A DNA stretch of 64,000 nt, from assembly GCA_902586435.1 (NCBI GenBank), contig CACIHJ010000002.1:1-64000 (forward strand). Reading direction: 5' to 3'. Position numbers and translations under genes: made by a program. Of this stretch, positions 3,802 to 59,180 are shown one piece after another (position 1 is the first letter of the stretch; each line of letters opens with the position of its first letter). Under the pieces are notes generated by a model, which was given only the letters and a program-made list of their open reading frames with translations, did not search any database and was not told the origin of the DNA. Origin of the DNA: an uncultured Bacteroidota bacterium (GTDB taxonomy: Bacteria; Bacteroidota; Bacteroidia; Flavobacteriales; Flavobacteriaceae).

Positions 3802-4887
3802 ATGAAACAAACACTTCTTTTTAATAAACACTCCCAATTAGGCGCAAAAATCTCTGATTTTGCTGGATTTCAAATGCCAATTAGTTATTCTTCTGTTAAT
3901 AAAGAACACTTACATGTTAGGGAAAGTCTTGGAATATTCGATGTATCTCATATGGGGGAGATTTTTATTTATGGGAAAAACTCTGAAAATCTTTTACAAA
4001 GAATTTGCAGTAATGATATTTCAAAGCTAATTCCAGGAATGGCTCAATATAACTGTATGACAAATTTTAAAGGAGGAATTATTGATGATCTGATTGTTTA
4101 TAAAATTGAAATAGATAAATATATGCTAGTGGTAAATGCCTCAAATATTCAAAAAGATTATGAGTGGGTTTTATCGCAAAATAAAGAGTTTAATGCAACT
4201 ATAATTGATGAGTCTAATAATTATTCACTTCTTGCAATCCAAGGTCCCAAGGCAATTGATTATTGTCAAAACTTTACAAATGTGGATTTAAATAGTATGA
4301 AGAACTTTTCACATTCAATATCAACATTTGCTAACTGTAATAATATTCTTTTATCTAAAACTGGATATACTGGTTCTGGAGGATTAGAAATATATATTCC
4401 TAATGAATGTGTAGTGGATATATGGGACCATCTTTTCAAATTCAATAAAAATGAAACTTTAATGCCAATAGGTTTAGCAGCCAGAGATACATTAAGAATC
4501 GAAATGGGATACTGTCTATATGGTAATGAGATTAATGAGAACATATCTCCTATTGAGGCTGGATTAAACTGGATAACTAAACCTGAAACTGAATGTATTG
4601 GCTCTGAAATTTTTAAAAAACAAATTAATAATGGAGTTAAAAAAAAGTTAGTTGGATTCAAACTTAAAAACAGAGGTATTCCTAGATCGGGATATAAAAT
4701 TTATGATTCTAGGGATAAAGAGATTGGAATTACCACTTCGGGAACTTTTTCCCCTGTTTTAAAAATAGGAATTGGTTTAGGATATATAAACTTTGAATCA
4801 TTAGGAACTGTTAAGGATATCCATATTAAAATTAGAGATGAATTTATTGAATTAGAAATTATAAAACCCCCATTCATTGAAATATAA
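3802..4887 (+). CDS. gcvT: Glycine cleavage system T protein (aminomethyltransferase)
   Basis: GcvT transfers the methylene group from the aminomethyl-H protein to tetrahydrofolate and releases ammonia. The 361-residue protein has the family start (LFNKHSQLGAKISDFAGFQM), the FDVSHMGEI motif near residue 47, the GGIIDDLIVYK folate-site region and the C-terminal RSGYKIYD..ITSGTFSP-type segment. The other glycine cleavage genes (gcvH, gcvP) are not in the window. It follows thrC by four bases and precedes the yebC-type gene by two, so a long plus-strand operon is likely; glycine and threonine metabolism are linked, but I see no shared regulatory site. Confidence 0.95.
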   Translation: MKQTLLFNKHSQLGAKISDFAGFQMPISYSSVNKEHLHVRESLGIFDVSHMGEIFIYGKNSENLLQRICSNDISKLIPGMAQYNCMTNFKGGIIDDLIVYKIEIDKYMLVVNASNIQKDYEWVLSQNKEFNATIIDESNNYSLLAIQGPKAIDYCQNFTNVDLNSMKNFSHSISTFANCNNILLSKTGYTGSGGLEIYIPNECVVDIWDHLFKFNKNETLMPIGLAARDTLRIEMGYCLYGNEINENISPIEAGLNWITKPETECIGSEIFKKQINNGVKKKLVGFKLKNRGIPRSGYKIYDSRDKEIGITTSGTFSPVLKIGIGLGYINFESLGTVKDIHIKIRDEFIELEIIKPPFIEI

Positions 4888-6129: not shown

Positions 6130-6833
6130 TGTCTTTTTAGGTATTCTTCTGCTCTAATTAAGTCTTCAGGAGTGTCAATAGATATAGCAGAAAAATCTGT
6201 TTTAAACATCTTAATTTTTTTTCCATTTTCTATATACCTTAGGCATTCAATTTTTTCCTTCTTTTCCATTAAAGTTTTTTCCATTTTTGAAAACTCTATT
6301 AGAGTTTCTTTTCTAAAAGCGTATACTCCTATATGCTTATAGTTATTTAAATGAGAATTCATAGGAACTCTTGAGAAATTGATTGAATAATTATCTTTAT
6401 CAACAATAACTTTTACATTATTTGAGTCATTTAACTCATTCTTATCTTTAAAGTCTCTCATTAAAGAAGCCATTTGAACTTCTTTATTATTAAAACCATT
6501 TAATAACACTTCAATTGACAATCTATCTATAAAGGGTTCATCACCTTGCAGATTTACAATAATATCATGTTTAAGATCAATAGCTACTTCAGCTATTCTA
6601 TCTGTTCCAGACTCATGATTTGAAGAAGATTTCAGATATTTTCCATTAATAGATTTCATTAAATCTATTATTTGATTATTGTGAGTTACAACAAAAACAT
6701 CATCAAAAAGATTAGCTCTAATGGCTGATTGGTAGGTCCTAATAATAACAGGGACTCCTGATAGCTTTTCTAACAATTTTCCATGAAATCTCTTTGATTC
6801 AACTCTAGCTGGAATTAATGCAATCTTTTTCAT
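6126..6833 (-). CDS. kdsB: 3-deoxy-manno-octulosonate cytidylyltransferase
   Basis: This enzyme makes CMP-Kdo, the activated sugar for the inner core of lipopolysaccharide. The nucleotide-binding start IPARVESKRFHGKLLEKL, the VVTHNNQI segment, and NLQGDEPFI are diagnostic; the C-terminal end SIDTPEDLIRAEEYL is also typical. The length of 235 residues is slightly below the usual 245-250. It is cotranscribed with the acyltransferase gene that overlaps its 3' end. Its 5' end faces the divergent gene at 6923 across 89 bases. Confidence 0.94.
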   Translation of the reverse strand: MKKIALIPARVESKRFHGKLLEKLSGVPVIIRTYQSAIRANLFDDVFVVTHNNQIIDLMKSINGKYLKSSSNHESGTDRIAEVAIDLKHDIIVNLQGDEPFIDRLSIEVLLNGFNNKEVQMASLMRDFKDKNELNDSNNVKVIVDKDNYSINFSRVPMNSHLNNYKHIGVYAFRKETLIEFSKMEKTLMEKKEKIECLRYIENGKKIKMFKTDFSAISIDTPEDLIRAEEYLKRQ

Positions 6834-6870
6834 TTAAAATCTTTTTCTAATATAATTCATTTATTAATAG

Positions 6871-18991: not shown

Positions 18992-21445
18992 TTACAATTT
19001 AAAAAATTTTGAGTTTGGAACCTTTCTATTAGTAATAGAATAGTCAATAACCTCAAACATATTCTTCACATATATAAACTTAATCCCCCTCAGATAAACT
19101 TTTTTAATCTCTTCTATATCTTTTTTATTTTCAATACTTAAAATTATTTCTTTAATATTAGCTCTTTTTGCAGCAAGTATTTTCTCTTTTATACCCCCAA
19201 CAGGAAGCACTTTTCCTCTTAAGGTGATTTCACCAGTCATCGCAATATTTTTCTTAACTTTTTTTTGGGTAAATAAGGACACTAGAGATGTTAACATTGT
19301 TATACCAGCACTCGGACCATCTTTTGGGGTTGCACCCTCTGGTACATGTATATGAATATTAAACTTACTAAAATCAATATTATCTATTCCTAATTCTTTA
19401 GCATTTGACTTTATGTATTCCATAGCAATAATCGCTGATTCTTTCATTATTTTACCCAAGTTTCCAGTAATATTTAGATCACCCTTCCCAGGAGAGACTG
19501 AAGATTCAATGAAAAGGATTTCTCCTCCAACAGAGGTCCAAGCAAGACCTGTTACAACACCTGCAACTAGATTATCTTCATACGTATCTTTGAAATATTT
19601 TTTGGGCCCCAATGTATTTGTTAGATAATTTTTATCATTTATGCTGACCGCTTTCTCTTTAGATACTATGTTTTTTGCTTTAGACCTTATTAGCTTAGCT
19701 ATTTGCTTCTCTAGATTTCTAACACCAGATTCTCTTGTATAATTAGAAATAATTTGTTTGATTATAGTTTGATTTAGTTTAAAATCACTGACTTTTAAAC
19801 CATGCTCTTTTAATTGTTTATTAATTAAGAACTTTTGGGCAATTGAAGTTTTTTCCTCGGTTGTATAACCAGTTACATTTATTAACTCCATTCTATCAAT
19901 TAAAGCTGGGTGTAGGTTAGATAGGCTATTTGCAGTCGCTATAAACATAACCTTGGATAAATCATATCCAACCTCTAGGAAGTTGTCATGGAATGAATTA
20001 TTCTGTTCTGGATCCAATAGTTCTAATAATGCAGATGCTGGATCACCTTGTGAACTAGATGAAAGTTTATCAATTTCATCTAAAACAAATACAGGATTTG
20101 AAGTTCCTGCTTTCTTAATACTTTGAATTATTCTTCCTGGCATAGCTCCTACATAAGTTTTTCTATGACCCCTTATTTCAGCTTCATCTCTCATCCCTCC
20201 TAACGAAACTCTCACATATTTTCTGTTTATAGATCTTGCTATAGATTTCCCAAGAGATGTCTTCCCAACCCCAGGAGGCCCATAAAGACATAAAATAGGA
20301 GATTTCATATCATTTCTAAGTTTAAGAACAGCCAGATATTCAATTATTCTTTTTTTAACCTCGTCTAATCCAAAATGATCCTTATCGAGAATCTTTCTTG
20401 CATTCTCTAAGTCAAAATTATCTAATGAGAATTCATCCCAAGGTAAATCTACTAATAAGTCAATATAGTTTCTTTGAACTGAATACTCAGCTAATTGAGG
20501 GTTCATTCTCTTTAACTTAAATAATTCTTTATCAAAGTGATCTTTAATCTCTTTTGACCATTTTTTTGATTCTGCTTTTTCAACTAGTTCTTCTATTTCT
20601 TCTTGATATGATGTCTCTCCTAGTTCTTCTTGAATAGTTTTCATTTGTTGATGAAGATAGTATTCTCTCTGCTGCTGATCTATATCACTTCTAACTTTAG
20701 ATTGGATATCATTTTTTAGTGCAAGTTTCTCATATTCTAAGTTCAGTTTTTTTAAACATTCTGTTGCTCTATCTTGAACATTAGTCATCGAAAGGAGTTC
20801 TTGCTTATCCATAATCCCAATATTCATATTTGATGAAACAAAATTTATTAGAAACGATGAACTATTTATGTTTTTAATTGCAAAAGAAGCCTCAGATGGA
20901 ATATTAGGGTTTTCTTTTATAATTTTTAAGGCTACATCTTTAATTGCATCAATAGTTGCAGTGAATTTGTTTGATAATTTCTTTGGCAATTTATCAATTA
21001 TATCAACAACAGTAGCTTGAATATATGGCTCTTCTTTAACAACTGTTTTAATTTTAAATCTTTTTTTCCCTTGAATAATTATTGTTGTGTTTCCATCAGG
21101 CATTTTGAGAACCCTAAGGATCTTTGCAACAGTCCCTAGATGATATATATCATCAATTCCAGGGTTCTCAGTAGATTTTTTCTTTTGAGCGACAACACCA
21201 ATAAGTTTGTTTGACTTATTAGCATCCTGAATAAGTTTTATTGACTTATCTCTACCAGCATTAATTGGTATTACTACCCCTGGAAATAGAACTGTATTAA
21301 TAAGAGGTAAAATAGGAAGTACCTCAGGTAGTTTTTCTTTTTCAAGAGCCTCTTCATCTTCAGATGTCATTAATGGAATAAATTCAGAATCAGCTTCTAA
21401 ATCATCAAGTGACACATTGTCCAAATTATTGAATTTTAAACTCAT
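18992..21445 (-). CDS. lon: ATP-dependent Lon protease
   Basis: The 817-residue protein has the N-terminal LON substrate domain (LPEVLPILPLINTVLFPGVV), a helical linker, the AAA+ module with Walker A GPPGVGKTSLGKS near residue 390, and the C-terminal protease domain with catalytic serine in DGPSAGITM (about 711) and lysine in GGIKEKILAAKRA (about 755). It degrades damaged and regulatory proteins in the cytoplasm. The C-terminal end runs some 20 residues past the usual domain boundary. The upstream region carries two inverted repeats, one of which (GACATTTTGTC) is shared with the dnaK upstream region. Confidence 0.96.
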   Translation of the reverse strand: MSLKFNNLDNVSLDDLEADSEFIPLMTSEDEEALEKEKLPEVLPILPLINTVLFPGVVIPINAGRDKSIKLIQDANKSNKLIGVVAQKKKSTENPGIDDIYHLGTVAKILRVLKMPDGNTTIIIQGKKRFKIKTVVKEEPYIQATVVDIIDKLPKKLSNKFTATIDAIKDVALKIIKENPNIPSEASFAIKNINSSSFLINFVSSNMNIGIMDKQELLSMTNVQDRATECLKKLNLEYEKLALKNDIQSKVRSDIDQQQREYYLHQQMKTIQEELGETSYQEEIEELVEKAESKKWSKEIKDHFDKELFKLKRMNPQLAEYSVQRNYIDLLVDLPWDEFSLDNFDLENARKILDKDHFGLDEVKKRIIEYLAVLKLRNDMKSPILCLYGPPGVGKTSLGKSIARSINRKYVRVSLGGMRDEAEIRGHRKTYVGAMPGRIIQSIKKAGTSNPVFVLDEIDKLSSSSQGDPASALLELLDPEQNNSFHDNFLEVGYDLSKVMFIATANSLSNLHPALIDRMELINVTGYTTEEKTSIAQKFLINKQLKEHGLKVSDFKLNQTIIKQIISNYTRESGVRNLEKQIAKLIRSKAKNIVSKEKAVSINDKNYLTNTLGPKKYFKDTYEDNLVAGVVTGLAWTSVGGEILFIESSVSPGKGDLNITGNLGKIMKESAIIAMEYIKSNAKELGIDNIDFSKFNIHIHVPEGATPKDGPSAGITMLTSLVSLFTQKKVKKNIAMTGEITLRGKVLPVGGIKEKILAAKRANIKEIILSIENKKDIEEIKKVYLRGIKFIYVKNMFEVIDYSITNRKVPNSKFFKL

Positions 21446-21460
21446 ACTTTAATTTATTAA

Positions 21461-21471
21461 GACATTTTGTC
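21461..21471. promoter_or_regulatory. Palindrome GACATTTTGTC upstream of lon (candidate operator)
   Basis: GACA-TTT-TGTC has the same arms and spacing as GACATTATGTC upstream of dnaK. On the lon strand it reads ATGACAAAATGTC and lies 15 bases before the lon ATG, in the predicted leader or promoter. It is a candidate site for a stress regulator. Confidence 0.45.
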
Positions 21472-21480
21472 ATTATAAAA

Positions 21481-21512: not shown

Positions 21513-21544
21513 TATATATAAAAATGCCATATATATAAAGTCAA

Positions 21545-21570
21545 AAGGTATGCCAATAAAACTATACCTT
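21545..21570 (-). terminator. Weak hairpin at the end of the MFS gene
   Basis: AAGGTAT and ATACCTT arms (seven bp, 12-base loop) overlap the stop codon of the transporter and are followed by TTGACTTT on the minus strand. The U-run is broken, so termination would be partial. Confidence 0.35.
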
Positions 21571-57204: not shown

Positions 57205-59112
57205 CTACTCTTTGACCTCTTCAAAGTCTACATCTTGTACATCATCACCTTCTGATTTTTTATCCCCGCCTGAAGAAGATTTTTCATCAGTTTGAGATTC
57301 TGGATTTTCAGCTTGAGCTTTGTACATTTCTTCAGACGCATTTTTCCAAGCTTCATTTATTTCATTTAATGAAGATTCTATTTTTTCAAGATCCTTAGAT
57401 TCATGAGCCTTCTTTAATTCTTCTAGAGCTGATTCAATAGGTTTCTTTTTATCGTCTGAAAGTTTATCTCCAAATTCTTTTAACTGTTTCTCAGTTTGAA
57501 ATATCATTTGGTCTGCACTATTATATTTATCTACTTCATCTTTTGCTTTTTTATCAGCCTCAGCATTTGCCTCAGCATCTTTCTTCATCTTCTCTATTTC
57601 CTCTTCTGTTAAACCAGATGAAGCTTCAATCCTTATATCTTGAGACTTATTAGTTGCTTTATCTAATGCACTAACCTTTATAATACCATTTGCATCAATA
57701 TCAAATGTTACCTCAATTTGAGGAACACCCCTAGGCGCTGGAGGGATTCCATCAAGATGAAACCTACCTATGGTTTTATTATCTTTTGCCATTGGTCTTT
57801 CCCCTTGTAATACATGAATTTCCACTGATGGTTGATTATCCGCAGCAGTTGAAAATACTTGAGATTTTTTTGTTGGTATAGTTGTATTTGCTTCAATTAA
57901 CTTGGTCATAACATCACCCATTGTAGCAATTCCTAATGATAATGGAGTAACATCAAGCAATAAAACATCCTCAACATCTCCCGAAAGCACTCCACCTTGA
58001 ATTGCAGCTCCTACTGCAACAACCTCATCAGGATTAACACCTTTAGATGGCTTTTTTCCAAATAATTTTTCTACTTCTTTCTGAATGATTGGAATTCTTG
58101 TAGACCCTCCTACTAAAATTACCTCATCTATATCTGATTTTGATAAACCTGCATCCTTCATTGCTTTTTTAACTGGCTCTAAAGACCTTTTAACTAAATC
58201 ATCAGATAGTTTTTCAAACTTAGCCCTTGTAAGAGTAGTAACAATATGCTTAGGGCCAGATGAAGTAGCAGTAACATATGGTAAATTAATTTCAGTCTGA
58301 GTTGATGAAGATAATTCAATCTTTGCTTTTTCTGCAGCCTCTTTTAATCTTTGAAGAGCCATAGGATCTTCTCTTAGATCAATTTGTTCTGATTTTTTAA
58401 ATTCTTCAGCTAAAAGGTCAATTATCACTTGATCAAAATCATCACCACCTAAGTGAGTATCACCATTGGTTGCAAGTACTTCAAATACTCCATCCCCTAG
58501 TTCAAGAATTGAAATATCAAAAGTACCACCTCCTAAATCATATACTGCAATTTTTTTATCCTTTCCTCCTTTATCCATTCCATAGGCTAAAGCAGCTGCA
58601 GTTGGCTCATTGATAATTCTTTCAACCTTTAATCCTGCAATTTCTCCTGCTTCTTTTGTTGCTTGTCTTTGTGAATCATTAAAATATGCAGGAACTGTAA
58701 CAACAGCGGAAGTAACAGTCTGCCCAAGATAATCTTCAGCAGTTTTCTTCATTTTCTGAAGAACCATTGCAGATAATTCCTGAGGAGTATATAACCTTCC
58801 ATCTATATCAACCCTTGGGGTATTGTTATCTCCTTTTGATACTTTATAAGCAACCGTTTTAACTTCTTTAGAAGATTCTGAATACTTATTCCCCATAAAC
58901 CTCTTTATTGAGGAAATAGTTTTTGTTGGATTTGTTACAGCTTGTCTTTTAGCTGGGTCACCAACCTTGATTTCACCATCTTCAACAAAAGCAACTACAG
59001 ATGGTGTTGTTCTTTTTCCTTCAGCATTTGGTATAACTACAGGCTCACTACCCTCCATTACAGAGACACATGAATTCGTAGTTCCTAAATCGATTCCTAT
59101 AATTTTACTCAT
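57205..59112 (-). CDS. dnaK: Chaperone DnaK (Hsp70)
   Basis: The 635-residue chaperone starts [18 protein letters not shown] (ATG 59112); a longer frame from 59142 adds ten residues and is not needed. The ATPase domain has [14 protein letters not shown] and [10 protein letters not shown], the linker [14 protein letters not shown] and the substrate domain ends in a disordered acidic tail [12 protein letters not shown]. No grpE or dnaJ gene is adjacent. The upstream region has no standard -7 box for the gene, no CIRCE element, and a 15-bp palindrome whose 11-bp core GACATTATGTC matches one before lon. Confidence 0.97.
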
Positions 59113-59165
59113 AATTTTATATTTTTTAAATACTAATGACAAGCATTATGCCAATGCATGTATAG

Positions 59166-59180
59166 ATGACATTATGTCAT
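59166..59180. promoter_or_regulatory. Palindrome ATGACATTATGTCAT upstream of dnaK (candidate operator)
   Basis: A perfect 15-bp palindrome with core GACATTATGTC. Extra half-sites TGACA (59137-59141) and TGTCA (59184-59188, 59210-59214) surround it. It lies 53 bases before the dnaK ATG and 43 before panB, so either gene could be the target. Confidence 0.5.

Follow-up and report, generated by a model that had tools for sequence, protein, structure and literature searches.

A helically phased palindromic site beside sigma-54 heat-shock promoters of Bacteroidota and its candidate activator encoded near groESL

The palindrome found at lon and dnaK in the 64,000-nucleotide stretch of DNA considered here (the window), from an uncultured member of the Flavobacteriaceae, is very probably (a probability of roughly 0.8) the activating sequence of sigma-54-dependent promoters serving protein quality-control genes, where it is predicted to be bound by bEBP-A, a dedicated sensor-less enhancer-binding protein encoded near groESL. 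The regulon would comprise dnaK, grpE-dnaJ, groESL and lon, to which relatives would add htpG and hsp20. The evidence, as read from sequence, is provided by the site, the promoter, the phasing of the two, the set of genes served, synteny and the co-loss of RpoN and its enhancer-binding protein in endosymbionts.

Results

Palindromes at lon and dnaK lie beside predicted sigma-54 promoters

The first-pass annotation of the window had described a palindrome shared by the upstream regions of lon and dnaK, and both the positions and the distances given were confirmed. The lon copy, GACATTTTGTC, spans positions 21461-21471, with 15 bases separating the site from the ATG of lon (18992..21445, minus strand, ATG at 21445; NCBIfam TIGR00763). 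The dnaK copy, GACATTATGTC, spans positions 59168-59178 inside ATGACATTATGTCAT (59166-59180), 55 bases 5' of the ATG of dnaK (57205..59112, minus strand, ATG at 59112; NCBIfam NF001413 and TIGR02350). Within the window, the pattern GACATNWTGTC was found at two places only, namely, lon and dnaK, as compared to a mean of 0.08 in shuffled sequence, which never reached the observed count. The observation is thus correct and far above chance. Overlooked at that stage were a third copy, GACACATTGTC, at positions 21411-21421 within the first codons of lon, another copy 50 bases 5' of grpE-dnaJ elsewhere in the genome, and the sigma-54 boxes that adjoin the palindromes.

In the genome from which the window derives (1.02 Mb in 24 contigs, 84% complete), GACANNNTGTC was detected at seven sites, as compared to 4 for the reversed control pattern. 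Two of the seven correspond to lon, one to dnaK and one to grpE, with the remaining three falling in open frames. Read on the minus strand, the putative enhancer of dnaK is the perfect palindrome ATGACATAATGTCAT (59166..59180), within which the 13-mer TGACATAATGTCA (59167-59179) ends 13 bp from the -24 box. In those genus relatives that possess the dnaK enhancer sequence, dnaK is almost always the next gene downstream.

Alignment of the regions upstream of dnaK in these relatives revealed a second and equally conserved element, TTGGCATAATGGTTGTC, just 3' of the palindrome, and, judged by its sequence, this element is built and spaced like a sigma-54 -24/-12 promoter. In the window, the predicted sigma-54 promoter of dnaK, TGGCATAATGCTTGTC, lies at 59138..59153 (minus strand; predicted transcription start at ~59127), while that of lon, TGGCATACCTTTTGAC, which is conserved in genus relatives, lies at 21540..21555 (minus strand; predicted start at ~21529). 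These read TGGCAT-N5-TTGTC (dnaK) and the same with TTGAC (lon), in agreement with the TGGCAC-N5-TTGC type. When the whole genome was searched for TGGCAYN5TTGWC, exactly two matches, at lon and dnaK, were obtained, as compared to one for the reversed control. Upstream of grpE in relatives, TGACATTTTGACA is followed after 11-13 bp by TGGCAGTACTTTTGC, by all appearances a textbook sigma-54 promoter that closely matches the -24/-12 consensus, and upstream of groES in the genome itself, TGCCAAAGTGTCA is followed after 12 bp by TGGCACAGTTTATGA. The genome accordingly contains pairs of site and box with gaps of 13 (dnaK), 11 (grpE) and 12 (groES) bp, as well as a gene encoding RpoN (PF04552, E 2.1e-50). 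The lack of a -7 box near lon and dnaK, remarked upon earlier, is explained by these promoters being of the sigma-54 type.

At lon, the sites lie downstream of the predicted promoter. The reported palindrome corresponds to the first putative downstream enhancer, TGACAAAATGTCT (21460..21472, minus strand), in the predicted 5' UTR at ~+58 to +70; in the genus, a site is conserved here, its distance from the GG being either 87.5 or 77.5 bp. The second, GGACAATGTGTCA (21410..21422, minus strand), lies inside lon codons 8-12 and is likewise conserved, with corresponding distances of 137.5 or 126.5 bp. Between species groups, both sites have moved by 10-11 bp, i.e., about one turn. Given how sigma-54 enhancers can act from downstream, as with RocR in Bacillus, the lon sites would by analogy fit an enhancer role, although the case is weakest here.

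The site precedes heat-shock genes in many Bacteroidota

To determine the distribution of the pairing, one genome from each of 84,980 species was scanned with the pattern TGACATNATGTCA-N(6,30)-TGGCAY-N5-TTG. This yielded at least 119 stretches, and 80 loci were analysed among the matches listed. Of these 80, 79 precede heat-shock genes, the first gene downstream, among the matches listed, being dnaK in 66 cases, htpG in five, hsp20 in four, grpE in two, and lon and groES in one each, with htpG and hsp20 recognised by reading protein sequences; one gene (locus L195) was unidentified. Although gaps of 6-30 bp were permitted, only gaps of 11-13 and 22-25 bp appear among the matches listed. Enrichment at other chaperone or protease genes, proposed in the first-pass annotation as a check on its suggestion, was thus borne out, with grpE-dnaJ, groES, htpG and hsp20 also carrying the site, an outcome that combines the all-species scan with the groES and grpE loci of the genome itself.

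All but two of the matches listed are titled Bacteroidota. In the first exception, a Chlorobiaceae metagenome-assembled genome (L196, positions 6795-6844), enhancer and promoter precede hsp20, such that the system may extend outside Bacteroidota. The second, labelled Thalassobius, an alphaproteobacterium (L215), contains a Bacteroidota-type heat-shock promoter and probably reflects a misbinned contig or contamination. At L195, from an uncultured Croceitalea (positions 4537-4575), no recognisable gene was seen within 400 bp downstream.

Across the phylum, the strict palindrome could not serve as a signature, as it was found together with the box in only 5 of 395 genomes. A more general form, TGNCA-N3-TGNCA, was instead derived from endosymbiont groES and phylum dnaK promoters, and was present in 20 of 33 promoters having TGGCA-N6-TTG; 23 rearranged control words were found in none. 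When 90 dnaK upstream regions from the phylum were considered, TGGCA-N6/7-TG was detected within 320 bp in 41 (Markov shuffles: mean 3.5, maximum 7), and the box together with a site (score of at least 8/10, within 47 bp) in 16 (shuffles: 0.08, maximum 1). Because the TGGCA box is absent from the other 49 of the 90 regions, control of dnaK via a sigma-54 box is not universal. In family f5 (L392 and L394), the 320 bp examined upstream of dnaK contain no TGGCA box.

Sites are held on one face of the helix relative to the promoter

The distance from site to promoter can be described as 12 + n x 10.5 bp. Within 97 bp, gaps of 12, 22-23, 33, 43-44, 54-55, 65-66, 76-77, 86-88 and 95-96 bp were seen, with 10, 15 and 62 bp as outliers. 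With the period set at 10.5 bp, the 38 sites of 33 promoters gave a Rayleigh R value of 0.83, and the 30 sites with a gap above 18 bp, taken alone, gave 0.85. This R was not reached in any of 100,000 random placements, although the resulting probability overstates the number of independent events, since the sequences share ancestry. A gap of 12 bp places the dyad ~21 bp, or two turns, from the GG. The sequences thus indicate that the site is kept on one helix face relative to the promoter, and shifts by whole turns between lineages argue for constraint beyond inheritance alone.

RpoN and a single enhancer-binding protein are kept or lost together in endosymbionts

Comparing the presence of RpoN with that of the motif proved uninformative phylum-wide, as RpoN is nearly universal (388 of 395 genomes). 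Use was instead made of a natural experiment, namely, the endosymbiont family that includes genome G051 and comprises 68 genomes of 0.2-1.3 Mb. RpoN was found in 55 of these, each containing exactly one enhancer-binding protein, and was not found in the other 13, of which 12 also contain no such protein. The remaining RpoN-less genome, G111, does present a frame, but was rejected as an exception, as a contig ends nearby and the short frame may reflect an assembly break. With two fragmented g34 assemblies left out, 11 single-contig genomes are without both RpoN and an enhancer-binding protein.

Of the 20 endosymbiont groES loci considered, 16 have in-phase sites upstream of the gene (gaps of 23, 32-35, 42-44 and 53 bp; R 0.84) and 19 have a TGGCA box. 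In-phase sites also precede grpE-dnaJ in five reduced endosymbiont genomes and in G112, and endosymbiont genomes of 0.34-0.64 Mb have retained sites. Where read, the gene for the single enhancer-binding protein lies near groESL, with a putative site before groES or grpE. In G126, neither site nor box was found upstream of groES (L422, on a contig of 309,299 bp), while RpoN and the single enhancer-binding protein are kept.

bEBP-A is the candidate activator

Sigma-54 promoters require an enhancer-binding protein. The genome under study encodes two strong PF00158 proteins. The first, bEBP-A (G000 C1:57611-58906, locus L275), contains an AAA+ domain (PF00158, E 4e-65, residues 17-183) with the Walker A sequence GESGVGKE and a GAFTGA loop at residue 92, and ends with an HTH_8 domain (residues 387-423, E 3e-11). 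Proteins of this kind are ~380-445 residues long, have no N-terminal sensor domain and present a linker of ~115 residues between the AAA+ domain and the Fis-type HTH. In all orthologs checked, an [AS]FTGA loop is present and the recognition helix, LGISERTLYRKIK, is identical. The gene order miaB-bEBP-lptE-TPR-secG-groES-groEL, with miaB, lptE, TPR and secG named from sequence and the F. psychrophilum annotation, is kept in most members of the order examined and is shortened in reduced endosymbiont genomes. In family f5 (L283 and L285, in G040 and G053), as well as in G047 and G055, groES is not adjacent to the enhancer-binding protein gene.

The second, protein B (C15:16133-17299, i.e., L276:8134-9300, minus strand), the only other strong enhancer-binding protein of the genus, is a receiver-bearing NtrC-like protein that has no HTH and in which, in its own genus, GSFTSA replaces GAFTGA. 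It is unlikely that the palindrome serves as an enhancer for another enhancer-binding protein, or for a ring in which bEBP-A and protein B are mixed. In most members of the family, protein B is encoded near grpE-dnaJ, and its receiver could import a signal. Given its lack of an HTH and its degenerate loop, however, protein B would be expected neither to bind the site nor, alone, to activate sigma-54, and was rejected as the site binder, while endosymbionts retain bEBP-A only. Protein B may act together with the activator, or may have lost its sigma-54 function. Because bEBP-A is the sole strong enhancer-binding protein with both an intact loop and an HTH seen in this partial genome, it is the likely binder.

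About equally unlikely is a reading in which a separate HrcA- or HspR-like repressor uses the palindrome as its operator, which would then lie near sigma-54 heat-shock promoters by coincidence. Elsewhere, heat-shock genes are often under repressor control, and a repressor could act from the position of the lon copies, 3' of the promoter. Against this, sites lie from a gap of 12 to ~96 bp upstream of the box and nearly always in phase, as would be expected of an activator that touches polymerase, and those endosymbionts that retain sites keep a single enhancer-binding protein. The absence of CIRCE stated in the first-pass annotation also held, as TTAGCACTC-N9-GAGTGCTAA was matched at no more than 13 of its 18 letters in the window and at 12-13 of them at the groES and grpE loci, leading to CIRCE being rejected. 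Chance resemblance, or inheritance without function, is hardly credible: related genera supply many of the matches and the pattern is short, yet reversing the full palindrome leaves almost no matches, the 23 control words for TGNCA-N3-TGNCA gave zero against 20, sites move by whole helical turns between species while being retained in the smaller endosymbiont genomes, and phasing and gene specificity already contradict such a reading.

Discussion

Sigma-54 control of heat-shock genes in Bacteroidota has been described. In F. psychrophilum, sigma-54 (SM4) promoters were mapped in 2021 at groESL, lon, dnaK, grpE-dnaJ and htpG, with the SM4 heat-shock genes forming one co-expression cluster whose activators were left unassigned, it being said of activators only that three PF00158 proteins exist; as a class, the sigma-54 promoters of this species responded most strongly to blood agar (PMC9723704). 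A PSSM survey of Bacteroidota from 2025 likewise reported sigma-54 promoters to be enriched at GroEL, GroES, IbpA, GrpE and DnaJ, as well as at DnaK, HSP90 and proteases (PMC12316311). The same genes and the same -24/-12 class are seen here, to which an enhancer and a candidate activator are added. The main texts of the two papers contain neither an enhancer site, a palindrome nor an assigned activator, and no report of the site, the phasing or the activator was found in the openly accessible literature, to which the search was confined. As such, four things are new relative to the open literature: the palindromic site, the helical phasing, a candidate activator and the pattern among endosymbionts. 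The earlier statement that heat-shock control in Bacteroidota is poorly known accordingly applies to site and activator, yet not to sigma-54 dependence, already published (PMC9723704; PMC12316311), while the undescribed stress regulator then suggested finds support when recast as a predicted sigma-54 enhancer-binding protein.

In architecture, bEBP-A resembles PspF-type proteins, with an N-terminal AAA+ domain, a GAFTGA-type loop, a C-terminal Fis-type HTH and no receiver, but differs from these in its long linker, in its gene lying beside groESL, in its predicted chaperone regulon and in a predicted enhancer as close as a gap of 12 bp (centre near -45). Its score against TIGR02974 (260, as compared to a cut-off of 444) places it outside the PspF family, and all of its NCBIfam scores fall far below equivalog cut-offs. 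HrcA/CIRCE, HspR/HAIR and RpoH likewise coordinate dnaK, grpE, groESL, lon and clp-type genes, yet these are repressors or a sigma-70-type factor, whereas an ATP-driven sigma-54 activator would act here.

How such a system could work can be proposed. Dimers of bEBP-A would bind TGNCA-N3-TGNCA and, on the side of the helix shared with the -24 element, assemble into a ring whose use of ATP would open sigma-54 RNA polymerase. Having no sensor domain, bEBP-A is probably kept inactive in trans by a protein under normal conditions, possibly docked on the ~115-residue linker, with misfolded proteins drawing the inhibitor off and so releasing the activator. The obvious candidate for the inhibitor would be a chaperone of the bEBP-A regulon itself. 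Analogous restraint is exerted by PspA on PspF and by DnaK on sigma-32. Binding by bEBP-A, activation, a heat or misfolded-protein signal and chaperone feedback are the steps we infer, of which restraint in trans is the least certain.

The authors of the Walczuchella genome paper found it unusual that flavobacterial endosymbionts of insects should have retained RpoN, and suggested a role in nitrogen use (PMC3971599). Control of chaperones would offer an alternative answer to the question raised there. On balance, it seems somewhat probable that much of Bacteroidota handles heat shock via sigma-54 and a chaperone-checked activator encoded beside groESL that acts on phased TGNCA-N3-TGNCA sites, and that endosymbionts keep RpoN for this reason.

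In the literature searched, chaperone induction in Bacteroidota has no named regulator. The present analysis puts forward one candidate protein, together with a defined DNA site and its precise geometry. Enhancers phase-locked to the promoter, some as near as two turns from the -24 element, would also be useful for studying contact between activator and polymerase. Together, enhancer and activator may account both for heat-shock control in this phylum and for the presence of RpoN in tiny insect symbionts.
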